From assembly GCA_016193065.1 (NCBI GenBank), contig JACPSX010000064.1:1-14028 (forward strand): a stretch of 14,028 bases of DNA, in the 5' to 3' direction. The notes beneath the pieces are model-generated. The model did no database searches and was not told the DNA's origin. It worked only from the letters and a program-made list of their open reading frames with translations. This DNA is from Candidatus Tectimicrobiota bacterium. GTDB lineage: Bacteria; JACPSX01. Each line of letters starts with the position of its first letter. Position 1 is the stretch's first letter. A program made the translations under genes and the position numbers. Of the stretch, positions 1-13,925 are shown one piece after another.

Positions 1-1698
1 AATCTGGGTTTTAACCTGGTCGCAAAGAGAAAGCTTCCACTGGAATCTCACAGCATCCAGGATCTAACTGCCTTGCAGAACCTAGCTGCGCTTTCCGGAC
101 CATTTCTGAAGGAAGATGCCCCGAGCTCCAAGCATGTAGCGGTCATCGGCTCCGGCGTTGCGGGCATGACCTGCGCTCACGACCTGGCAATCCTGGGAAA
201 CCGGGTAAGGGTCTTTGAGGCGCAGCAGGTTCCCGGGGGCATGCTGGTTCTCGGGGTGCCAGAGTACCGCCTCCCGAGATCTCTCATCCGGGCGGAGATT
301 GACGCGATCCTCGATCTGGGCGTTGAAATCAGGTTCGGGCAGACACTGGGGAAAGACTTTTTGATTCGTGACCTCTGGTCTCAGGGCTTCGATGCCGTCT
401 TCCTTGCTATCGGAGCCCATAAGAGCCGGGAATTGCGGATGGAAGGGGTAGAGCTGGACGGGGTCTTTCGGGCCCTCGAATTCCTGCTCAACGTGAATCT
501 GGATTATAGGGTCAATCTGGGCCGCCGTGTTGTGGTTGTGGGTGGAGGGGATGTGGCCATGGACGCCGCCCGGTCCGCGGCCCGGGAACTTCTCGCGGAG
601 GAAGTGCGGCTCTCCACCGCGCACGTGGGAGTCATCAACGGGTCCCTGGATGCTGCCTCGGCCATGCGAGAGGCCATGGATGTGGCCCGGGAGGCCATGA
701 GACGGGGGACCCGGGAAGTGCAGGTGGTCTGTCTGGAAAGCTGGGAAGAGATGCCCGCCCAGCGGTTTGAAGTGGAAGAAGCTATCGAGGAGGGAGTGAT
801 GCTCCACACCCGCCTGGGTCCCAAGCGAATTCTGGGAGAAGACGGAAAAGTGCGGGGGATCGAGATGCTCGCGGTGCGCTCCGTTTTTGATGAAAAGGGC
901 CGCTTCAACCCCGCCTTCGTGGAAGGCTCCGAGCAAGTCATGGAAGCGGATTCCGTCATCCTGGCGGTGGGTCAGACTTCCGACCTGTCCTTCCTGACCC
1001 CCGAGGACAGCGTGGAATTGACGCCGCGGGGGACGATCAAGGTGGATCTGGAAACCATGGCCACCACGGCCCCGGGGATTTTTGCGGGCGGCGACGTGGC
1101 CCTGGGCCCGCGCATCTTCATCGAAGGGGTGGAGACCGGCCACCGGGCCGCCCGGGGGATCCACGAGTATCTCTCGGGGCGGAAAATCCGGGTTGAAAAA
1201 AGAGAGCACTGGGCCGGGATCGACTTCCGGGAGCAGCACTTCTTCGGCGCCGCGGAGACGCGAAGGCCCTGGCTCCCCGTCGTTCAACAGGGCTACGAGA
1301 AGATCCCGCGGGAATCCCCGCCCGCCATCCCCGTCGACCGCCGGATCGGAATCGCCGAGGTGGAGCTCTGCTACGGAGAAATGGAAGCCCGGCGCCAGGC
1401 CAGCCGCTGCCTGCGCTGCGGCATGAATCCTATTTTTGACGCGACCAGATGCATCCTGTGCGGGGGGTGCGTGGACGTATGTCCGCACTGGTGTCTGCGC
1501 ATGGTCCCGCTGCCGGAAATCGAGGAAGGGGAAACGCTTTCCCGGCTTGTGGAGGCTCCATTGGGATCGCCTGCGGGCAGCGCGATGATCATGGACACCA
1601 CAGCCTGCATCCGCTGCTCCCTCTGCGCCCTGCGCTGTCCCACGGGGGCCATCACGATGGAGAGCTTCCAGTTTGTGGAGGAATTAACCTATGAGTGA
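1..1698 (+). CDS. GltD-like FAD/NAD(P) oxidoreductase with C-terminal 2x[4Fe-4S] ferredoxin module (5' partial)
   Basis: Flavoprotein of the glutamate synthase small-subunit type, probably the soluble electron-input/output subunit of the Rieske/cytochrome b complex encoded downstream. The frame is open from base 1 and reads like protein, so the gene probably starts upstream; a TTG at 73 is an unlikely alternative. Numbering from base 1 (565 residues): FAD-binding GSGVAG at 50-55, NAD(P)-binding GGGDVA at 181-186, a second FAD contact GGDV near 363-366. The C-terminus has CxxC (470, 473), then ferredoxin cysteines 484/487/490/494 and 536/539/542/546, enough for two [4Fe-4S] clusters. The Tyr-Arg-Arg that holds NADPH in many GltD proteins is replaced by Leu-Glu-Ser (245-247), and there is an insert of roughly 35 residues between the second Rossmann motif and that site. 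The N-terminal cysteine cluster of true GltD is not visible. The stop overlaps the Rieske gene by 8 bp. Family assignment is firm; partner and direction of electron flow are inferred. Confidence 0.9.
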   Translation, partial: NLGFNLVAKRKLPLESHSIQDLTALQNLAALSGPFLKEDAPSSKHVAVIGSGVAGMTCAHDLAILGNRVRVFEAQQVPGGMLVLGVPEYRLPRSLIRAEIDAILDLGVEIRFGQTLGKDFLIRDLWSQGFDAVFLAIGAHKSRELRMEGVELDGVFRALEFLLNVNLDYRVNLGRRVVVVGGGDVAMDAARSAARELLAEEVRLSTAHVGVINGSLDAASAMREAMDVAREAMRRGTREVQVVCLESWEEMPAQRFEVEEAIEEGVMLHTRLGPKRILGEDGKVRGIEMLAVRSVFDEKGRFNPAFVEGSEQVMEADSVILAVGQTSDLSFLTPEDSVELTPRGTIKVDLETMATTAPGIFAGGDVALGPRIFIEGVETGHRAARGIHEYLSGRKIRVEKREHWAGIDFREQHFFGAAETRRPWLPVVQQGYEKIPRESPPAIPVDRRIGIAEVELCYGEMEARRQASRCLRCGMNPIFDATRCILCGGCVDVCPHWCLRMVPLPEIEEGETLSRLVEAPLGSPAGSAMIMDTTACIRCSLCALRCPTGAITMESFQFVEELTYE

Positions 1699-2182
1699 GT
1701 CGAAAAAAGGCGGCATCTTCAGCCGGCGCGGTCTGCTGGGAATCGGCTGGTTTAGCTTCATTGTTTCCATGGTGGGTCCCGCCCTGGCCAACATCCGCTT
1801 TCTCTTCCCCAACGTGGTGTATGAACCCCCCAGCCGGGTCAAGCTCGGCAAACCGGAAGAGTACGCCCGCGGCTCCGCCACTTTCGTGGAGGACCAGAGG
1901 TTTTACTTGTTCCGGGATGGAGAGGGGTTCCGGGCCATCTCCGCCGTGTGCACCCACCTGCGCTGCACGATCAACTCCTTTGGACCCGCGGACGCCGAGT
2001 ACGGGGAACCCCACGCCCACTGTCCCTGCCACGGCAGCGTGTTTGCGCAAAAAGACGGCCGGGTCCTGAAAGGCCCCGCTCCCGTCGCCCTGGAAATATA
2101 CGAGGTCGGCCTGGCACCCGACGGCCGGCTCGTGGTGGACACGGCCCGGCGGGTGGACGCCGGGTTCCGGTTCAGGGTCTAG
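1691..2182 (+). CDS. Rieske [2Fe-2S] iron-sulfur protein
   Basis: High-potential electron acceptor of a cytochrome bc-type complex, taking the first electron from quinol at the Qo site and passing it to cytochrome c. The 163-residue protein has both cluster-binding boxes, C87-T-H89-L-R-C92 and C111-P-C113-H114-G-S116, with the two histidines and two cysteine ligands plus the disulfide pair, and a Pro-loop (KGPAP, 127-131). The N-terminus has SRRGLLG followed by a hydrophobic stretch (residues 11-34), consistent with Tat export and retention as a membrane anchor. The ATG lies inside the end of the upstream gene and is preceded by GGAGGAA with 7 bp spacing, which supports this start. It is 17 bp from the cytochrome b start, so the two are certainly co-transcribed. 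Identification is certain; length is normal for bacterial Rieske subunits. Confidence 0.96.
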
Positions 2183-2199
2183 CAGGGGAGAAGAAGAAC

Positions 2200-3666
2200 A
2201 TGGCCAAACTCACCGAGAACCGCTTCTGGCGCTCCCTGTTCCGCAGACCGCTCCCTGACAGCGACCTCGACCGCATGCTGACCATGTTCAGCAACTTCTT
2301 CCTCCATATCCTGCCCGCCAAGGTCCACCGCCACAGCTTGAAGCCCGGCGCCACCTGGGGCCTCGGGGTGATCTCGTTCGTCCTGTTCCTGGTCCTCATC
2401 GTCACCGGCGTTCTGCTGATGTTTTTCTACGTCCCCTCGGTGGAGAGGGCCTACCGGGATATGAAGGACCTCAAGTACGTGGTTTCCTACGGAGTCATCC
2501 TGCGCAACATGCACCGCTGGGCGGCCCACGGCATGGTGGCGGCGGTCTTTCTTCACATGGTGCGGGTGTTCTTCACGGGTTCGTACAAGCCGCCGCGGGA
2601 ATTCAACTGGGTTCTCGGGATCCTCCTCTGGGGGATCACCCTGCTGTTGAGCTTCACGGGCTACCTGCTCCCCTGGGACCAGCTCGCTTACTGGGCGATC
2701 ACCGTGGGGACGAGCATCGCCAGCTATCCCCCCTGGATCGGAGAGAAGATCCGCGTCCTTCTTCTGGGAGGGAACATTGTCGGGGAAAGCGCACTGCTGC
2801 GCTTCTATGTGCTCCACGTGGTATTTCTCCCCATGGTCTTGATGGTCCTGGCGGCCGTCCATTTCTGGAGAGTCCGCAAGGACGGCGGCATCGCCCGACC
2901 CATCGCCCTGGCTCTCCACCCCGTTGCCGGCGGGGGCCCCACTTCGGCGGAAGCGACGGCGCGCTTCGTGCCGGGTCCCCTCAAGACCTACACCCTGGTG
3001 GAGCTTGTCCGTGGGACCTCGCCTCAGGTCGGCATCCAGGCTCCTGAGGAGGAGGTACCCTCCTGGCCCCATCTCACCATGCGCCTGCTCATCGTGTTCG
3101 AGCTGGTCCTCGTTGTGCTCACGGCCGTAAGCTTCCTGTTCGATGCCCCGCTGCTGGAACAGGCGAATCCGGTGCGGCCCGACAATCCCGCCAAAGCCCC
3201 CTGGTACTTCCTGGGGATTCAGGAGCTCGTCAGCTACTCGGCCCTGGTGGGAGGGGTCCTGGTCCCTGCCATCGCTCTTCTGGGACTCATGAGTATCCCT
3301 TACATGGATCGGGATCGATCAGACCAGGGGATCTGGTTCGGGAGTCCGGCGGGAAAACGAGCCGCATGGATCTCGTTCCTCCTCACGGTTCTGGTGATCC
3401 CCGCTCTTCTCTTCCTGGACTCCCGCTTTGGCGTGCGCCAGGTGGCCCCCGGGGCTCCCCAGTTTTTCACGGATCTTCTAAACCCGGCCAGCGTCCTTAC
3501 CACTCTTATGGCCGTGAGTTCCTTTCTCACCTGGCGCGCAACCCGCTCCCGGCGCCTGGGCGCCATGGTGCTCTTCACAGCCTTCGTTTCGGCCTACCTG
3601 GTCTTTACGGTCATCGGGACCTATTTCCGGGGGCCGAACTGGGTATGGGTCTGGCCATGGCAGTAA
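2200..3666 (+). CDS. Fused full-length cytochrome b of a Rieske/cytochrome b complex
   Basis: Diheme quinol-oxidising membrane subunit, 488 residues. I chose the ATG at 2200 over the longer open frame because GGGGAG precedes it and the upstream extension runs inside the Rieske gene. Heme ligands are H105 and H119 (HRW...LH, 13 residues between) and H206 and H221 (14 residues between); the 14-residue spacing in helix D is the b6-type rather than the mitochondrial type. Unlike b6f, the N- and C-terminal halves are fused in one chain, with helices near 52-77, 108-127, 136-157, 200-223, 292-314, 345-366, 388-406, 432-446 and 455-474. The Qo-site motif reads A-P-W-Y (333-336) instead of P-E-W-Y, so the usual catalytic Glu is absent. 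The protein has no cysteine, so a covalent heme ci like that of b6f is not expected. It sits between the Rieske and cytochrome c genes, as expected for such a complex. Confidence 0.95.
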
Positions 3667-3709
3667 AACGGTTGCGGAAACTTCTTCCCTCGGACCTCGG
3701 AGGGTTCTG

Positions 3710-5008
3710 ATGCTGCGCATCTATCGCCTGTTCGCCCTGATGAGCCTGATCACACTGGCTCTTTTTCTCCTCTCTCTGTGGAAGGACTCTAACCGGGAGT
3801 GGAAGAAGTACCAGGATGAGTACCGGAATCTCCTGATCGCCAAGGCCAAAGACGCCGACCAGCGCCGCGCGGCTGAAAACGTCGGATACGAGTTCGCCCA
3901 GGTCAGCGTCGCGGAAGGGGCTCGGGTGGACCGCTGCATCATGTGCCACAGGGCCGTCGAGGACCCCAGGTTTGTGGACGCCCCCCAACCCCTGCGCGCG
4001 CACCCGAAGATCCCCTCCCACCCCTTCGAGCGCTTTGGCTGTACCGGTTGCCATGGGGGGGACGGCAGCGCCACGGAGGTCCAAGCGGCCCATCAGGGGA
4101 TCCAGAAAAAAGAAGGGGCCGTTCTTCCCGATGGCCGGATCGTTTACCTAACCGAGAGGGAAGAACCCCTTCTGCCCGGCAATCTGGTCCAGGCTTCCTG
4201 TGGATCCTGTCACCTGACGGAGGACCCGGGGAAGATCGGGGCTCCCGTGCTATCCCGGGGCAAGACCCTGTTTCAAGAAAAGGGGTGCATCGGCTGCCAC
4301 CGGGTTGGTAGAATTGGAGGAAAGGTGGGACCCGAGTTGACTTTTGCCGGGGAAAAGCGCTCGGACCCGGAATGGTTGCTCAAACACTTCCGGGATCCTG
4401 AGTCCCTGGTTCCAGACTCGGCCATGCCTTCCTACAAGAATCTTGGAGAAGAGGAGTTGCAGGCTTTGACCGCTTTTGTTCTGAGTCTCCGGGAGGTTCC
4501 CTTTACGTTGATCGCTTCGGCTCCCCTGCAACCACAGACCGTCGTTGCCTTGACCCCGCCTCCGGTGCCCCGGGAAGCCCACTGGGAAGCCCCCCGAAAC
4601 GAAAACCTCCGGCCGAATCCTGTCCCGGCTAGTGCGGAGTCCGTAGCAAACGGGAAAAAGCTCTACGGCAAGTACTGCGCGGGCTGCCACGGGGAGTCGG
4701 GCAAAGGAGACGGGCCCGGGGCGCCGAAAGACTTGAAGCCGGAACCCGCGAATTTTGCCGACCCCCGCATGATGGCCCACGAGCGGGAAGGCGGACTCTA
4801 CTGGAAGATCACCCGCGGCCGGGGATTGATGCCGGGCTGGGAAGCCACGATCCCCCAAAAAGACCGCTGGGATCTGGTCAACTTTCTCCGCACTCTGCCG
4901 CCGAAAGTCCAGATGCCTCCCGGCATGATGGAGCAGCCCCACGGCGCAATGGGAGGGGAGAAAGAGCCCGCCGGTCACATGGAGGAATCCCGGCCCGGCG
5001 GTCATTAG
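3710..5008 (+). CDS. Membrane-anchored pentaheme cytochrome c subunit
   Basis: Periplasmic multiheme cytochrome, 432 residues, likely taking the place of cytochrome c1/f in the complex. One N-terminal hydrophobic segment (about residues 5-24) acts as an uncleaved anchor. Five CxxCH heme sites are visible: 76-80, 111-115, 164-168, 193-197 and 323-327. The first three form a module with many nearby histidines. The fourth and fifth sit in class I-like cytochrome c domains with candidate Met ligands M239 (AMPSY) and M374 (LMPGW). A Pro-rich linker (about 270-305) separates the last domain. The C-terminal tail is rich in Met, His and Gly. The ATG follows GGAGGG at 5 bp spacing and lies 43 bp after cytochrome b. 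The next gene, a histidine kinase, starts 10 bp after the stop. Cytochrome identity is certain; membership in the complex is inferred from gene order. Confidence 0.94.
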   Translation: MLRIYRLFALMSLITLALFLLSLWKDSNREWKKYQDEYRNLLIAKAKDADQRRAAENVGYEFAQVSVAEGARVDRCIMCHRAVEDPRFVDAPQPLRAHPKIPSHPFERFGCTGCHGGDGSATEVQAAHQGIQKKEGAVLPDGRIVYLTEREEPLLPGNLVQASCGSCHLTEDPGKIGAPVLSRGKTLFQEKGCIGCHRVGRIGGKVGPELTFAGEKRSDPEWLLKHFRDPESLVPDSAMPSYKNLGEEELQALTAFVLSLREVPFTLIASAPLQPQTVVALTPPPVPREAHWEAPRNENLRPNPVPASAESVANGKKLYGKYCAGCHGESGKGDGPGAPKDLKPEPANFADPRMMAHEREGGLYWKITRGRGLMPGWEATIPQKDRWDLVNFLRTLPPKVQMPPGMMEQPHGAMGGEKEPAGHMEESRPGGH

Positions 5009-5018
5009 CCAAGGTCCC

Positions 5019-6974
5019 ATGGAAGATCTGCAGCCATCACGCTTGAAAGATCCGAGACCTTTTCCCGGCAGGATCGGCCGGAAGCTCAGCCTTTCTCTCG
5101 CGGTGATCATCACCCTGGTTCTGATCGTGGGAGGAGTTTCCCTGTTGCTGGCCCGTTCCATTTCCCGCACCAACCAGGAGATCAAGCAGCAAAGCCAGCA
5201 CACGGAGGTGATGAGCGCTGTCCAGTTCCAGGCCCAGCAATTGATCGTGGAAGTAACACAGGTGGTCGTTACCGGCGACGGGACCCGCACTTCTCGAGTT
5301 GACTCTCTAGCTCAGCGTATCGTCTCCTTGCTGCAGGAGTACGGAGAAATTCACGAATCCAAAGAAGACTTCCCTGAAAAGCGCCGGGAGCAAAGGGCAA
5401 TTGTAGAAGTACGGGCCACCATCTCGAAACTTCTCCCAGTCTCTCGCAAGGTCCTGGAGACTCTGAGCGCCGGGAAAACCATCGACCGCCAGACGATCGA
5501 TTTCCTGAACGGCGTGAACCTCAGGATGCCCGCTCTCTTTGGCGAAGTGAACGAGATCCACCAGGCCAAGATCCAGCGGCTGATCGGCGACAGCAGCAAC
5601 CGGATGAACGTCTTGCTGGGCATCTACCTGGCCTTCGTTCTCGTAGGAGCCGCCCTGCTCATCGGGGGCAGCGTGATTTTCTCGAGAAGGATCGTTTCCC
5701 CGATCCAGATCCTGGCGGAAGCCACCCGGGAGATCGCCCGGGGGAATCTGGATCGCGAGGTCCCGGTGACCTCCGGGGATGAGATCGGAGAACTTTCCCA
5801 TTCCTTCAACCAGATGGCCAGAAAGCTGGAGGAGCACGAACGGCAGTTGCACGAGGTGAACCAGCAGCTGCAGAGCAGGGTGCGGGAGGCCCAAGCGCTG
5901 AACTGCATCGGAGTGGAAATCTCCAAGCTCCTGGACCTGGACAAGATTCTTCAGTCCGTGGTAGAGCGGGCGCGTGAACTCCTGCAGTGTGAGGTGGTGG
6001 CTCTGTGTCTGGTGGAAAATGGCGACCGCTTGGTCCTCAAGGCCACCAGTGGCCCTCCGGAGGCATTTTCCACCCGACTCGACAGCAGCGGATCAGAGAA
6101 GTCAGTCGGTGTCCCGGCGGACCTGCCGGACCATCTGGTGCTCTGCTCCTTGATTGCGGAAAAATACCGAAGCGTCCACTGTGCGGTCCCACTAAAATCC
6201 GGAGAGAATGTTGTCGGCGCGCTGTGCGCGGCAGACAGCCGGCCCCGTGACTTTTCCGAAGCAGAGAGAGAACTTCTCGCCGGCCTGGCCACCCAGGCGA
6301 CCATCGCCATACAGAATGCCCGTCTGTACGAGCAGATGCAGGGCCTCGCGGTCCTGAAAGAAAGAGAACGCATCGCCCGGGAGATGCACGACGGGCTGGC
6401 GCAGAGCCTGGGTTACCTCCATCTCAAGATCCGATCCGCCGAGAACCTGCTGGGACCGTCGCCGGACCCGAAGGTGGCCGAGGAAGTGCGCGCCATGCGC
6501 AGGGTGATCGAGGAAGCCTACGAAGAGGTCCGCCAGTCCATCTTCGGATTGCGGACCATGGTTTCCCGCGGCCTGGGCGTGATCCCCACCCTGACCGAGT
6601 ATCTCCACGACTTCAGTGAGCGGAACGGAATCCCGGTCGATCTGCAAATTCCGACGGGACAGGAGATCTCATTCCCTCCCGCCGGGGAAGTGCAGCTCAT
6701 CCGGATTATCCAGGAAGCCCTGGCCAACGTGCGCAAACACGCCCAGGCGAAGCGCGCCCGGATCGCCTTTGAGGTGAACGGCACTTCCACTCAAGTCACC
6801 GTCGCGGACGACGGGCGGGGATTCGACCCGAAGGAGACCCTGAAGGCGGGCCGGCTCCAGTTCGGGCTGCAGACCATGCGGGAAAGGGCTGAATCCCTGG
6901 GAGGGAAGCTGGAGGTGATCAGCGCGCCGGGAAAGGGGACCCGGGTTCTCGTCCACATCCCCCGGGGCGCGTGA
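5019..6974 (+). CDS. NarX/LiaS-class sensor histidine kinase (TM-sensor-TM-HAMP-GAF-HisKA_3-HATPase)
   Basis: Membrane sensor kinase, 651 residues, expected to phosphorylate the response regulator encoded 12 bp downstream. In order: TM1 (about 25-46), a mostly helical periplasmic domain (about 47-197), TM2 (about 198-221), HAMP linker (222-275), coiled coil (265-292), GAF domain (about 295-435), HisKA_3 dimerisation helix with the phospho-acceptor H457 in REMHDGLAQ, and an HATPase domain with an N-box around 566-574 and DDGRGF at 597-602. The periplasmic part lacks a recognisable nitrate P-box, so a nitrate sensor role is not supported. All six cysteines of the protein (296, 324, 330, 376, 388, 403) fall in the GAF region, which suggests a redox, metal or heme signal. 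Only a weak AAGG precedes the ATG. The 10-bp gap to the cytochrome gene argues for one operon with the respiratory complex. Confidence 0.93.
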   Translation: MEDLQPSRLKDPRPFPGRIGRKLSLSLAVIITLVLIVGGVSLLLARSISRTNQEIKQQSQHTEVMSAVQFQAQQLIVEVTQVVVTGDGTRTSRVDSLAQRIVSLLQEYGEIHESKEDFPEKRREQRAIVEVRATISKLLPVSRKVLETLSAGKTIDRQTIDFLNGVNLRMPALFGEVNEIHQAKIQRLIGDSSNRMNVLLGIYLAFVLVGAALLIGGSVIFSRRIVSPIQILAEATREIARGNLDREVPVTSGDEIGELSHSFNQMARKLEEHERQLHEVNQQLQSRVREAQALNCIGVEISKLLDLDKILQSVVERARELLQCEVVALCLVENGDRLVLKATSGPPEAFSTRLDSSGSEKSVGVPADLPDHLVLCSLIAEKYRSVHCAVPLKSGENVVGALCAADSRPRDFSEAERELLAGLATQATIAIQNARLYEQMQGLAVLKERERIAREMHDGLAQSLGYLHLKIRSAENLLGPSPDPKVAEEVRAMRRVIEEAYEEVRQSIFGLRTMVSRGLGVIPTLTEYLHDFSERNGIPVDLQIPTGQEISFPPAGEVQLIRIIQEALANVRKHAQAKRARIAFEVNGTSTQVTVADDGRGFDPKETLKAGRLQFGLQTMRERAESLGGKLEVISAPGKGTRVLVHIPRGA

Positions 6975-6986
6975 GGAGGCTCAAGA

Positions 6987-7658
6987 TTGGACCCCATCCG
7001 AGTCCTGCTGGTTGACGATCACGCCCTGTTTCGCCAGGGAGTCCGCAGCGCACTGGAAAGCGAAGCCGACATCGAAGTAGTGGGCGAGGCGCGCACCGGG
7101 ACCGAGGCCATCGTGAAATCCCGGGAGATCATGCCCGACGTCATCTTGATGGATATCTACATGCCCGAGGCCGACGGCCTGGAGGCGACCCGAAAGATCA
7201 TGTCCGAGATCCCTTACGTGAAGATCATCATGCTGACGGTGGCCGAGGAAGACGCGAAGCTATTTGAGGCGATCAAGGCCGGGGCCAAAGGCTATCTCTT
7301 GAAGAACATTGATCCCAAGGATCTCCTCGAGATGGTCCGCGGGGTGTCTGGAGGGGAGGCCCCGATCAGCCGCGTGATGGCGGCAAAGATCCTTGGGGAA
7401 TTTTCCCGGCAGGGCAGAGATGATGTCGTCTGTCCGGCATCCGGGGGGAAATTGAGTCCCCGGGAGATGGAGGTTCTGAAGCATCTGACGGATGGGGCAA
7501 GTAATCGGGAGATCGCCACCGCCCTGGGGATCAGCGAGAACACGGTGAAGAATCATCTGCGGAACATCCTGGAGAAGCTGCACCTCCAGAACCGCGTGCA
7601 GGCCGCCGCCTACGCCCTGCGGCAGGGGCTCACCGGCCCCCCCCGGGGCCCGGAGTAG
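6987..7658 (+). CDS. NarL/FixJ-family response regulator
   Basis: DNA-binding response regulator, 223 residues, partner of the kinase just upstream. The receiver domain has the acidic pair D10/D11, phospho-acceptor D56, T84 and K106. The C-terminus has a LuxR-type helix-turn-helix (about 155-212; LSPREMEVL and the recognition-helix region ISENTVKNHL). The start is a TTG at 6987 supported by GGAGG at 6975-6979 with 7 bp spacing; it directly gives the usual IRVLLVDDH beginning, and no ATG or GTG fits. Its last 29 bp overlap, tail to tail, the end of the glutaredoxin-like gene on the other strand, so there is no intergenic terminator. A GC-rich 6-bp-stem hairpin (7635-7650) lies there but has no T-tract. 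The target genes are unknown; the co-transcribed respiratory complex is the natural candidate. Confidence 0.94.
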   Translation: MDPIRVLLVDDHALFRQGVRSALESEADIEVVGEARTGTEAIVKSREIMPDVILMDIYMPEADGLEATRKIMSEIPYVKIIMLTVAEEDAKLFEAIKAGAKGYLLKNIDPKDLLEMVRGVSGGEAPISRVMAAKILGEFSRQGRDDVVCPASGGKLSPREMEVLKHLTDGASNREIATALGISENTVKNHLRNILEKLHLQNRVQAAAYALRQGLTGPPRGPE

Positions 7659-7908
7659 GAGTCTTCCCTTTCTCGCGGGCAAGCCGCCGGCGCAAGGTTT
7701 TCTCGTCCACCCGAAACTTGAATGCCAAGCGTCCGTTGAGAAAAACCAATGGGATCCGCTCCTTGTAGGTCTCGTAGAGCTCCGGCGTGGACTCGATGTC
7801 GATCTCGCGGAGATCAAATGGGATCTCTCGCTGGACCTTGCGCAGCGTCGCCTTCACCTCCTCGCACAGATGGCACTCGCGCTTTCCATAGATCTCAACG
7901 TGAATCAT
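7630..7908 (-). CDS. Small glutaredoxin-like thiol-disulfide protein (copy 1)
   Basis: Predicted cytoplasmic thioredoxin-fold protein of 92 residues. It has a CxxC redox site (C12-H-L-C15) directly after the first beta strand and a cis-Pro candidate in RIPLVF (P53), the layout of the short 'glutaredoxin family protein' group (DUF836-like). The ATG at 7908 is preceded on the minus strand by GAAGGTG and lies 9 bp after the methyltransferase stop, so the two form an operon. The Pro/Gly-rich last 12 residues overlap the response regulator gene on the opposite strand and look like an unselected tail. The first 80 residues match 64 of 80 positions of the glutaredoxin-like part of the fusion gene at 11400-12035, so the two are paralogues. 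The substrate is unknown. Confidence 0.85.
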   Translation of the reverse strand: MIHVEIYGKRECHLCEEVKATLRKVQREIPFDLREIDIESTPELYETYKERIPLVFLNGRLAFKFRVDEKTLRRRLAREKGKTPTPGPGGGR

Positions 7909-10617: not shown

Positions 10618-11025
10618 CTATGCTTTTGAGGCCCAGTTTTCCACGCGAAGGCCCGGCACCTGTCTGAATTCCTTCTCGTTGCTGGTGACCAGGCGCGCAC
10701 CCAGACTCAGTGCGTGCGCGGCGATCAGCAGGTCCATCGCGCCTATCGGACGGCCCCTCTTTTTGAGTCCTGCCCTGATTCTGCCATAGGCTGCAGTTGC
10801 CTGCCGATCAAAAGCGGCCACCTCGAGCGGAGACAGGAACAGATCCAGGGCTTCCTGATTCCTCTTCGGCTGGCTGCTCTTGCTGACGCCATACTGGAGC
10901 TCGGCAAGAGTAATGACGGAGATTCCTATGTCGCCGATCGAAAAGGAGCGAAACCGATCCAGAACAGAGAGAGGACGCTGTTTGATGAGGTAAATGCAGA
11001 TGTTGGTGTCCAGCATGAGCTTCAC
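10618..11025 (-). CDS. vapC: VapC-type PIN-domain ribonuclease toxin
   Basis: Toxin of a type II toxin-antitoxin pair, expected to be a Mg2+-dependent RNase that cuts specific RNA (in known cases tRNA or rRNA). The 135-residue protein has the PIN acidic residues D6 (MLDTN), E42 (LAELQYG), D98 (AMDLLIAAHA) and the fourth position as N116 (VTSNEKEF), which is common in this family. The end (VPGLRVENW) is typical of the VapC group. The start is GTG at 11025, overlapping the vapB stop as GTGA, so translation is probably coupled. Length and all key residues are normal, so it looks intact. Confidence 0.94.
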   Translation of the reverse strand: MKLMLDTNICIYLIKQRPLSVLDRFRSFSIGDIGISVITLAELQYGVSKSSQPKRNQEALDLFLSPLEVAAFDRQATAAYGRIRAGLKKRGRPIGAMDLLIAAHALSLGARLVTSNEKEFRQVPGLRVENWASKA

Positions 11026-11258
11026 GGAAATGTCCTGGTCCTTTTCTGGAGGCGCGGCTGATTCCGGCCACTCTGCATAAAGTCATCCGTGAACTTGTCC
11101 AGGCTTTTGCTGAGGGCGGCCCAGGATCTCTTCTTTGGCCGGAGCAGCAAGCATTCCCCCTGGCGTTGAATTTCCGCCTCATCGCCTTCCATCTGAAATT
11201 CCTTGGGAATTCTTACCGCCTGGCTGTTCCCGCTGCGAAAAATCCTTACGGTCTTCAC
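11022..11258 (-). CDS. vapB: VapB-type antitoxin, SpoVT-AbrB fold
   Basis: Antitoxin of 78 residues that would bind VapC and repress the operon. The N-terminal 45 residues are a swapped-hairpin AbrB domain (IFRSGNSQAVRIPKEF, then the LLLRPKK end of the DNA-binding part). The C-terminal part (RSWAALSKSLDKF..DFM) is the usual toxin-binding tail. The start is a GTG at 11258 with GGGAGGAA 8 bp upstream. An upstream in-frame start at 11315 would put the promoter and operator inside the gene and is rejected. The stop overlaps vapC by 4 bp. Confidence 0.92.
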   Translation of the reverse strand: MKTVRIFRSGNSQAVRIPKEFQMEGDEAEIQRQGECLLLRPKKRSWAALSKSLDKFTDDFMQSGRNQPRLQKRTRTFP

Positions 11259-11275
11259 GGCTGATTCCTCCCGAT

Positions 11276-11295
11276 GTATATACAACAGGATATAC
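11276..11295. promoter_or_regulatory. Inverted repeat, likely VapB/VapBC operator
   Basis: GTATAT (11276-11281), 8 bases, ATATAC (11290-11295): a perfect 6-bp inverted repeat that covers the -10 box and the probable transcription start of vapBC. AT-rich inverted repeats of this kind in this position are the usual binding sites for autoregulating VapBC complexes. Confidence 0.6.
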
Positions 11296-11315
11296 GGAGG
11301 CAAGGAATCTGTCAA
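11287..11315 (-). promoter_or_regulatory. vapBC promoter
   Basis: Minus strand: perfect TTGACA (11315-11310), 17-bp spacer, then TATCCT (11292-11287, 4 of 6 to TATAAT). Transcription would start about 20 bases ahead of the vapB GTG. The -35 box overlaps the stop codon of the HMA remnant, so the module sits tight against the neighbouring pseudogene. Confidence 0.65.
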
Positions 11316-12035
11316 TTCCTCTGGGCCGTCGCCCCCTCGGTCCGGTAACCCGCGTCGCGAACGGCCCGCTCCAGCGCGGGCAAACCGACCCGGGTCGGGT
11401 CATAGAGCCTTCTCCACGGCCTGTACGCAGCGGGCGCAGGTGAGGCCGAAAACTGGCAACTCCACCCGCTGGGGACCGGCGAGACCCTCCCGCACGCCCG
11501 TAGTCGCCGAGGGGACATGTCGCCCACGCTGGGCTGCCGGCTCACCCGCATATCTGCCCGGGTCGACGGCGAACGCCGCCTCGCACTTCGCCGAGCAGAA
11601 AAAGAAGGTCCGGCCGGCGTGTTCCCGCCAGGCATGAGCCTTCTCCTCCTCGACCTCCATCCCGCAGACCGGGTCCCTCACCATTTTCCATCCCCCCGAC
11701 AGGGCGACCGTCATGAATTTTAACCTCCCCGTTCCCATGGACTTCTCCGCCCGCAATGCGATTGTCTCAGGGCCGGTCCCTGCCAGTTCCATCTCCTTCT
11801 CTCGTGCGAGCCGCCGGCGAAGAGCCGCCTCATCCACCCGGAACTTGAATGCCAGCCTCCCGTTGATGAAGACCAGCGGGATTCGCTTCTTGTAGGCCTC
11901 GTATAACTCTGCCCTGGATTCAATATCGATCTCGCGGAGATCGAAGGGGATCTCGCGCCGGACCTTGAGGAGGGTTGCCGTAACCTCCTCGCAGAGGCAG
12001 CAGTCGCATCTTCCGTAGACCTCAACGCGGATCAT
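11312..12035 (-). pseudogene. Glutaredoxin-like / YHS / HMA fusion with broken HMA domain
   Basis: The open frame 11400-12035 gives 211 residues. Residues 1-80 are a glutaredoxin-like domain (C12-C-L-C15) 80% identical to the protein at 7630-7908. Residues 121-161 are a YHS-type metal-binding domain (DPVCGM, then FFFCSAKC). Residues 191-211 begin a heavy-metal-associated domain (GLTCARC, C200 and C203). The frame then stops, but the minus-strand frame at 11404-11312 carries the expected end of an HMA domain (YDPTRVGLP..AVRDAGYR, then stop). About 20 residues in the middle are missing together with the frame, so the gene has an internal deletion. The ATG at 12035 is set by the match to the paralogue and by GGAAGGTGG upstream. 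A second start for a separate YHS-HMA protein is possible at 11684, where GGGGGG lies 7 bp before an ATG. The first two domains may still be made. Likely ancestral role: metal or thiol handling. Confidence 0.75.
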
Positions 12036-12125
12036 CCACCACCTTCCCGGCAAAGATGGGACCTTCCGGCTCCCGGTCGCATTGGTGACATGGTGCAGAT
12101 TGTGGTAATCATGAATCGGACTCAA

Positions 12126-12738: not shown

Positions 12739-12801
12739 AAATCCCCCCACTGAAGAAAATCCCCCTGCTCCCCCCTTTAAAAAGGGGGGAAGGGGGGATT
12801 T
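12737..12801. repeat. C/G-tract palindromic repeat (hairpin)
   Basis: The left part has two copies of GAAAATCCCCC (12737 and 12755), running into CCCCCCTTT; the right arm is AAAGGGGGGA followed by AGGGGGGATTT (12781-12801). The two arms (about 12757-12778 and 12781-12801) can pair into a long G/C hairpin. It resembles the short palindromic intergenic repeats found in many copies in some environmental genomes. It may also end transcription of the permease operon. Confidence 0.6.
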
Positions 12802-12829
12802 GCGATAAGTTGAAATGGAACGCACGGCA

Positions 12830-12883
12830 ACTCCCTCCTTCCATACCCTCCCGCACCCAGAGAGTACTCGGGGGGAGGGGGTG
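12830..12883. repeat. Second, imperfect C/G-tract palindrome
   Basis: C-rich runs (12831-12858) face G-rich runs (12870-12881) around a perfect GAGTACTC core (12862-12869). Pairing of the flanks is imperfect. It sits about 30 bp from the first palindrome and is probably the same class of intergenic repeat. Confidence 0.4.
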
Positions 12884-12967
12884 AACAGAGCATTTTCTGA
12901 GCAGTCGGCATGACGGTATATGGACACCACGACGGATGAAAAATTGCATTTTCGTGACAGGTATTAG

Positions 12968-13925
12968 TCAGCCGATCTGCCGTCCGAACCGCCAGAGACC
13001 CAGGGCAAAGATTGCAAGACCGATGCCTCCCATGGCCAGGGCCTGAGAGGAGCAGCGCTTGCTGAAGGTTCTGAGCGAGCGTTCCCCATAGGAGACCCAG
13101 GCCCAGGCTGCTGAACAGGAAAAGGACGGAGAGCACGAAGAAGAGGAGGAGGCTTCCCCGGATCGACACCTCGAACCACCATGGTACCCAAAGGGCCAGG
13201 GCCAGGGAGACCAGGCTCACGACAAAGGTGGGAACCACCTTCGCGAGCATGATCTCCCACGGCCGCAGCGGCATCACGAGCAGTTGCTCGATGGTCCCCG
13301 CTTCCTTCTCCCATGCCAGACCAGCCGCCGGCAGAATGACGGCGATCATCATCACCGCCAGGGTCAGCATGGAGACCACCTCGAAGTCCACGCTCCGCAG
13401 GGCGGGGTTGTACCAGGCGCGGCGCTGGTTCCTTACCGCTGGGAGGTATGTGGGTTTCCCTGCCGAGGCAAGGAGTCTCTCCCGATCCAGCTCCTGCGAA
13501 TACTGCCGGACAATCCCGGTCGCGTAGCCGAGGGCGATGAGAGCCGAGTTGGAGTTGGAGCCGTCCAGGAGCAGTTGCGCGGAGGCGGAAAGCCCCTGTC
13601 CAAGCTGGCGGGAGAAGTCCGGAGGGATGACCAGACCCACGGTGGCCCGGCCGCTCTCCAGGAGGTCGTCAAGATCCCGGGAGCTCTGAGGCCAGTAGCC
13701 AGCGTCAAAGTACTCCGTTTGGGAAAAGCGGGCGATCAGTTCGCGGCTCTGCGGCGAGCTGTCCAGGTCCTGGACCGCCAGGCGGAGGTGAATCACGTCA
13801 TAGGTGATACTATAGGCGCAGATGGCGATCTCCACCGCGATCGTCCAGACGATCAGGATGATCAGCGGCTTCCGCCGGAAGAACTGGATGAACTCTTTCT
13901 TGATGAGCGCGGCTAGCGAGCCCAT
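12968..13925 (-). pseudogene. ABC-2 type transporter permease with internal deletion and frameshift
   Basis: Second membrane subunit of an ABC-2 exporter of the YbhS/YbhR/YhhJ kind. From the ATG at 13925 the frame is good for about 294 residues: TM1 (20-42), a large periplasmic domain (43-180), helices near 184-202, 228-248 and 258-282, and the conserved WEKEAGTIEQLLVMPLRPWE coupling region (205-224). After NLQQALLLS the frame turns into non-permease sequence. In a different minus frame, 13048-12968 reads as the normal end of such a permease (QALAMGGIGLAIF, then WRFGRQIG and stop). About 50 residues, probably two helices, are missing at the joint near 13040-13050. It starts 3 bp after the stop of another permease. 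Loss of function is likely unless the joint is an assembly error. Confidence 0.8.

Follow-up and report, generated by a model that had tools for sequence, protein, structure and literature searches.

How quinol electrons are lifted to the level of NADH (the reduced form of nicotinamide adenine dinucleotide, NAD) in lithotrophs is an open bioenergetic question, and the anammox organisms behind one proposed answer are hard to handle. The question is raised outside anammox by a 14,028-nucleotide stretch of DNA from a Candidatus Tectimicrobiota bacterium (hereafter the window), which is the complete contig C210 of a metagenome-assembled genome (MAG; 2.9 Mb, 294 contigs, 86% complete) whose rpoB is closest, among 31 named genomes, to that of a Nitrospirota (63%), with Zixibacteria at 60%. 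Four genes at its start encode, in order, an iron-sulfur (Fe-S) flavoprotein, a Rieske protein, a cytochrome b and a pentaheme cytochrome c, and are followed on the same strand by a histidine kinase gene and then by one for a NarL-type regulator; the distances between the six genes are -8, 17, 43, 10 and 12 bp (Table 1). Gene calls and family matches confirmed both the positions and the tight operon reported in a first-pass annotation of the sequence. Its wording "fused by operon" holds for the adjacency of the genes, but the flavoprotein is not fused to any other protein. We judge the chances to be about even that the four products work as a quinol-bifurcating, NAD+-reducing membrane complex like that proposed for Kuenenia stuttgartiensis.

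The Kuenenia complexes, encoded by Kuste4569-4574 and Kustd1480-1485, were described by Hauser et al. (2025; PMC12954380). Bifurcation of quinol electrons to NAD(P)+ by these Rieske/b-NAD(P) oxidoreductase complexes is a proposal, that of Kartal et al. as cited there, and is based on Rieske potentials and AlphaFold3 models. As in the window, genes for a Rieske protein, a b6-like cytochrome b, subunit IV, a multiheme cytochrome c and an NAD(P) oxidoreductase stand together.

The arrangement in the window is not due to chance, since the same order recurs across phyla and a second complete cassette, flanked by kinase/regulator genes, is present in the same genome on contig C148. Conservation of gene order had been suggested as a check, and a scan of genome contigs for cytochrome b (80 loci; phylum names are those of the MAG records) found the order flavoprotein-Rieske-b-c in five named phyla, namely Nitrospirota (L007), Acidobacteriota (L008-L015, L043, L065), Zixibacteria (L045, L061), Thermodesulfobacteriota (L026) and Bacteroidota (L024), with locus L055, labelled Deferribacteres, holding a flavoprotein fragment only. 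Nor is the flavoprotein found mostly apart from Rieske/b genes: in another sample, this one of 290 genomes, such a cytochrome b adjoins all but one of the 19 best matches to the flavoprotein (18 of 19), the exception, G204, falling among unlinked flavoproteins. A tree of the flavoproteins gathers 35 of the 36 linked ones in a single clade (Shimodaira-Hasegawa-like approximate likelihood ratio test, 99), with other GltD-like proteins outside it. The odd one (L201), whose gene is located after that of the cytochrome c, falls outside the clade and looks like a separate recruitment. Presence of the flavoprotein takes 5 changes on the cytochrome b tree against 25 in shuffles, with loss or absence in large branches (Bacteroidota/Aminicenantes, Chloroflexota/Calditrichota, Myxococcota). 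Flavoprotein and cytochrome b distances are correlated (r=0.74, exceeded by 0 of 2000 permutations), a value that carries no correction for common descent of the organisms, although phyla are mixed in the trees. By these sequence comparisons, the flavoprotein and the Rieske/b core have been inherited jointly.

Joint inheritance bears on the simplest alternative, namely that an ordinary quinol:cytochrome c reductase and a soluble NADH oxidoreductase share an operon and its regulation but work separately. Homologous complexes do occur with no flavoprotein gene nearby, and a histidine of cytochrome b discussed below (His36) is invariant in those as well. The exclusive clade, the joint inheritance and an order kept over several phyla speak against separate enzymes, as does the reported comigration of all subunits of the Kuenenia counterpart (PMC12954380), and we regard this alternative as very unlikely.

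What the flavoprotein contributes can be read in part from the window and in part from its homologues. The contig begins inside its gene, which leaves the reading frame open at the 5' end; judging from its counterparts on contig C226 and at locus L184, about 110 N-terminal residues are missing from the contig, an N-terminal Fe-S domain among them. The GltD-like flavoprotein with two ferredoxin-type sites of the first-pass annotation was recovered as a match to Pyr_redox_2 (1.1e-27) and two Fer4 sites; the best NCBIfam match is PRK12771 (1.5e-109, under that model's cut-off), and on these matches the protein belongs to the GltD/NfnB superfamily. Full-length cassette homologues (34 rows) share six N-terminal cysteines with little or no variation, and eleven C-terminal cysteines are invariant among cassette flavoproteins (36 rows), a pattern that would fit an Fe-S chain. 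Specific to the cassette proteins are an extra cysteine past the first ferredoxin motif (Cys498) and an arginine within the second (Arg538; window numbering). The position of NfnB Glu117 is occupied by lysine in 34 of 35 cassette flavoproteins, which have no first CxxC pair; this position is off the contig in the window, so that the likeness to Kuenenia, where the cluster proximal to flavin adenine dinucleotide (FAD) lacks a fourth cysteine and has a lysine in that ligand position, is a probable one, read from homologues. This lysine was considered as a cassette-only mark and was ruled out, being found in 9 of 15 other flavoproteins.

No transmembrane helix is predicted for the flavoprotein and its full-length homologues carry no signal peptide, and it is therefore predicted to be cytosolic, as in Kuenenia. 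A structure model of the L184 homologue (predicted local distance difference test, pLDDT, 84) is closest to NfnABC and StnABC (residues 15-630, Z 36-37), with NfnI and GltD lower at about 30, and NfnABC is also the reported fold match of Kuste4570 (PMC12954380). The likeness to these NfnABC/StnABC (BfuABC) transhydrogenases (PDB 9bov, 9n5u, 8oh5) takes in the C-terminal ferredoxin region, with 36-39% identity in the aligned part, but they are soluble, work without cytochromes or quinone, and have partner subunits that are not in this cassette. The arrangement of N-terminal clusters, FAD/NAD(P) domain and C-terminal 2[4Fe-4S] domain is shared with DsrL, an NAD(P)H:acceptor oxidoreductase of sulfur metabolism whose partner is DsrAB and not a cytochrome b (PMC7596348). 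No dsr gene was found among the scanned neighbours of the flavoprotein gene in the window, which are the Rieske, b and c genes and a two-component pair.

The substrate of the flavoprotein is most likely NAD rather than NADP. GltD/NfnB-type NADPH enzymes carry a YRR motif, as does DsrL-2 (PMC7596348), and at this position the cassette proteins have (C/S)LES or similar, with CLES in the window. Glutamate stands at the motif position in 97% of the cassette clade and arginine in 11 of 15 unlinked relatives, and it is from this replacement that NAD(H) is predicted. NADP and free ferredoxin, which had been suggested as substrates, are unsupported: another motif stands in the place of the NADP motif, and the ferredoxin-like clusters form part of the flavoprotein itself. 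The C-terminal 2[4Fe-4S] domain could still be taken to mean that the flavoprotein is an entry or exit on the cytoplasmic (N) side for ferredoxin or another carrier instead of NAD(H), in the manner of cyclic electron flow at b6f, and a small dicluster ferredoxin-like gene does lie beside a related, flavoprotein-free complex (L210). We consider this improbable, given that the FAD and dinucleotide-binding domains are intact with invariant glycines and that the C-terminal clusters make better sense as a wire inside the protein.

In the membrane, the cytochrome b carries a b6-like part and a subunit IV part in one chain, with all four heme-b histidines present. Hydropathy and a structure model place five transmembrane helices in the subunit IV part (near 290-312, 347-368, 382-409, 428-447 and 450-474; numbering from Met1 at base 2200), which is like Kuenenia and unlike b6f. 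The best NCBIfam match of the b6 part is ExtP (NF040969, 1.2e-81), the b-type cytochrome of selenite/tellurite reduction operons, with a score of 273.5 that is below the curated cut-off of 290. Where b6 has the heme cN cysteine the window has glycine, and this cysteine is missing from 35 of the 37 flavoprotein-linked cytochromes b. Hence split b6, a three-helix subunit IV and the heme cN cysteine, all features of canonical cytochrome b6f, are absent.

The Kuenenia AlphaFold3 models place a proposed third heme b at His43 (or His62); 204 residues further along the chain, Arg247 (or Arg266, with Lys267) is close by for the heme propionates (PMC12954380). An alignment of 116 cytochromes b (loci L007-L086 and L183-L222) contains a split group in which a histidine and an RK pair are exactly 204 residues apart, and since this spacing is common to that group and Kuenenia, the counterparts in the window would be His36 and Arg226/Lys227, a correspondence drawn from the spacing. 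The His36 position is histidine in 116 of 116 proteins, 37 of 37 with a flavoprotein gene and 79 of 79 without one nearby (some of these on short contigs). The spinach b6 sequence used as a reference has lysine here. On this evidence the His36 site is a genuine conserved feature, and the proposed third-heme histidine does not vary even in the roughly 80 complexes that have no NAD flavoprotein close by. We had considered His36 as a mark of flavoprotein-linked complexes, which is ruled out: being invariant in linked and unlinked groups, it is not by itself a marker of an NAD link. The heme, if real, would therefore predate NAD(P) reduction or be of wider use, and this conservation sets a limit on the published Kuenenia model. 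No clear docking signature was seen on cytochrome b in this alignment, the positions separating linked from unlinked proteins lying mostly in the membrane part and following clades. The window's protein falls in another branch than the Kuenenia-like split type.

The remaining two subunits would form the high-potential branch. The Rieske protein, with cluster motifs CTHLRC...CPCHGS, has its best PDB matches in Kuenenia 9rk4 (Kuste4569) and 9rk3 (Kustd1480), which together with the five-helix subunit IV part and the NfnABC fold supports the suggested kinship with these complexes. As in Kuenenia the potential-raising serine is kept, and the potential-raising tyrosine is phenylalanine (CHGSVF) as in Kustd1480, whose measured potential is +335 mV (PMC12954380). 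A tree of the short Rieske domains places Kustd1480 inside the split/204 branch and leaves Kuste4569 unresolved, and the window complex is therefore assigned to a neighboring branch and not clearly to the same one. The cytochrome c was counted to contain five CxxCH motifs (residues 76, 111, 164, 193, 323), in agreement with the five hemes first described, behind a predicted N-terminal anchor helix. Behind some cassettes of Nitrospirota and Acidobacteriota the cytochrome c gene is followed by one for a molybdopterin oxidoreductase (L007:10350-13010, L008:8947-12723, L043:9196-12636; L008 also has a NarH-like Fe-S subunit), which suggests different periplasmic partners, for which these enzymes are candidates.

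Taken together, we infer a complex in which cytochrome b would oxidize quinol on its periplasmic (P) side. From the Rieske cluster the first electron would move to the pentaheme cytochrome c and finally to an acceptor of high potential. The second would travel by way of hemes bP and bN, with a possible extra stop at a third heme b held by His36 at the dimer interface, into the flavoprotein, which would dock from the cytoplasm and take up the electron with its Fe-S clusters. From these clusters the electron would reach FAD and then NAD+, which would be reduced to NADH, with the favorable branch paying for this reduction in a quinone-based bifurcation. The genome has several heme-copper oxidase family genes, which may offer routes to strong oxidants.

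A number of points weigh against this reading. Genes for complex I subunits are present in the genome, so that the proposed complex would be an additional route to NADH. The model of cytochrome b is poor (pLDDT 66), the Rieske protein lacks the tyrosine mentioned above, and the distance correlation carries the limit given with it. His36, equally invariant where no flavoprotein gene is nearby, may serve otherwise, for example at an N-side quinone site. The same parts could also run in reverse, with the flavoprotein oxidizing NADH, cytochrome b reducing quinone on the N side and a Q cycle feeding the pentaheme cytochrome, making the whole an NADH:cytochrome c oxidoreductase. Every part is reversible, the flavoprotein motif is of NADH type, the Arg/Lys pair is at the position of an N-side quinone site with no heme cN blocking it, and the genome has a respiratory chain with terminal oxidase-family genes. 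Such a complex would waste the NADH-to-quinone step despite the presence of complex I, the ground on which the Kuenenia authors rejected this direction (PMC12954380), and we think it unlikely, though worth keeping in mind.

Quinol bifurcation to NAD+, the reading preferred here, is of a kind already known as the anammox proposal; what is distinct is the fused cytochrome b (b6 and subunit IV are split in Kuenenia), the absence of the heme cN cysteine (heme cN is modelled there), a pentaheme cytochrome c with no HAO-like octaheme, the NADH-type motif and the wide distribution. The flavoprotein gene also stands first here, unlike in Kuenenia, and the cytochrome b lies outside the split/204-type branch. 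No published flavoprotein-linked complex outside anammox was found in the open literature; this covers open papers, and a review available by subscription, that of ten Brink et al. (2013) on multiple Rieske/cytb complexes, may mention some. It is a tentative suggestion, which we would put somewhat below an even chance, that a respiratory complex widespread outside anammox divides quinol electrons between cytochrome c and NAD+, using a wire that runs directly from heme to Fe-S and has no heme cN. If true, reverse electron transport would have one more solution in addition to complex I and Rnf. As the cassette is present in at least five non-anammox phyla, the idea of NADH from quinol becomes testable outside anammox, with many more sequences for complex modelling of a similar, jointly inherited assembly and maybe culturable hosts.

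Table 1. Positions in the window of the cassette genes, their diagnostic residues and the adjoining regulatory genes.
Feature	Position	Strand	Remarks
GltD/NfnB-type Fe-S flavoprotein (FAD, predicted NAD(H) site, C-terminal 2x[4Fe-4S] domain)	1..1698	+	5' end missing
Glu246 codon of CLES motif	736..738	+	in place of NADP-binding YRR
Flavoprotein C-terminal Fe-S domain	1408..1638	+	invariant Cys 470, 473, 484, 487, 490, 494, 498, 536, 539, 542, 546; Arg538
Rieske [2Fe-2S] protein	1691..2182	+	N-terminal twin-arginine anchor; PF00355 4.7e-13
Fused b6-type cytochrome b and five-helix subunit IV part	2200..3666	+	488 aa; PF00033 2.5e-42
His36 codon	2305..2307	+	putative counterpart of proposed third-heme-b ligand
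Gly54 codon	2359..2361	+	where b6 has heme cN cysteine
Arg226-Lys227 of RKDGG motif	2875..2880	+	
Membrane-anchored pentaheme cytochrome c	3710..5008	+	
HAMP-GAF NarX/NarQ-like histidine kinase	5019..6974	+	
NarL-like response regulator	6987..7658	+	

The histidine kinase is probably in the same transcription unit as the cassette. Elsewhere in the genome, contig C173 carries a flavoprotein-free complex with an octaheme cytochrome, and the end of contig C226 (G000:C226:17362-17832, L223) carries the N-terminal part of another flavoprotein gene of the same clade. The overlap of this end with window positions 1-471, also a contig end, is exactly 471 bp long, with 80% nucleotide identity. Joining the two as a single flavoprotein gene was ruled out by this identity, which indicates two genes (or two strains), and the C226 sequence may be the start of either a third cassette or a strain variant.

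Among the scanned loci, flavoprotein-free complexes of Bacteroidota/Aminicenantes (L016:3072-5414 and others) have a divergent octaheme cytochrome gene, with TPR and HEAT repeats, beside the Rieske gene. At L204 and L215, split-type Rieske/b complexes lie directly behind genes resembling those of a molybdoenzyme, an Fe-S subunit and a chaperone, a layout like that of nitrate/nitrite oxidoreductase.

Further genes of the window were noted on the minus strand. A PIN-domain toxin and a MazE-type antitoxin form a pair with a 4-base overlap (10618-11315). Two closely similar glutaredoxin-like proteins are encoded at 7630-7908 and 11400-12125; in the latter reading frame, perhaps a fusion or the product of a frameshift, a YHS domain and then a metal-binding-like tail follow. 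The family match of an ABC-2 permease (12777-13925) ends at residue 294 of 382 and the remainder resembles another frame, so that this gene is probably broken or mis-assembled at that point.

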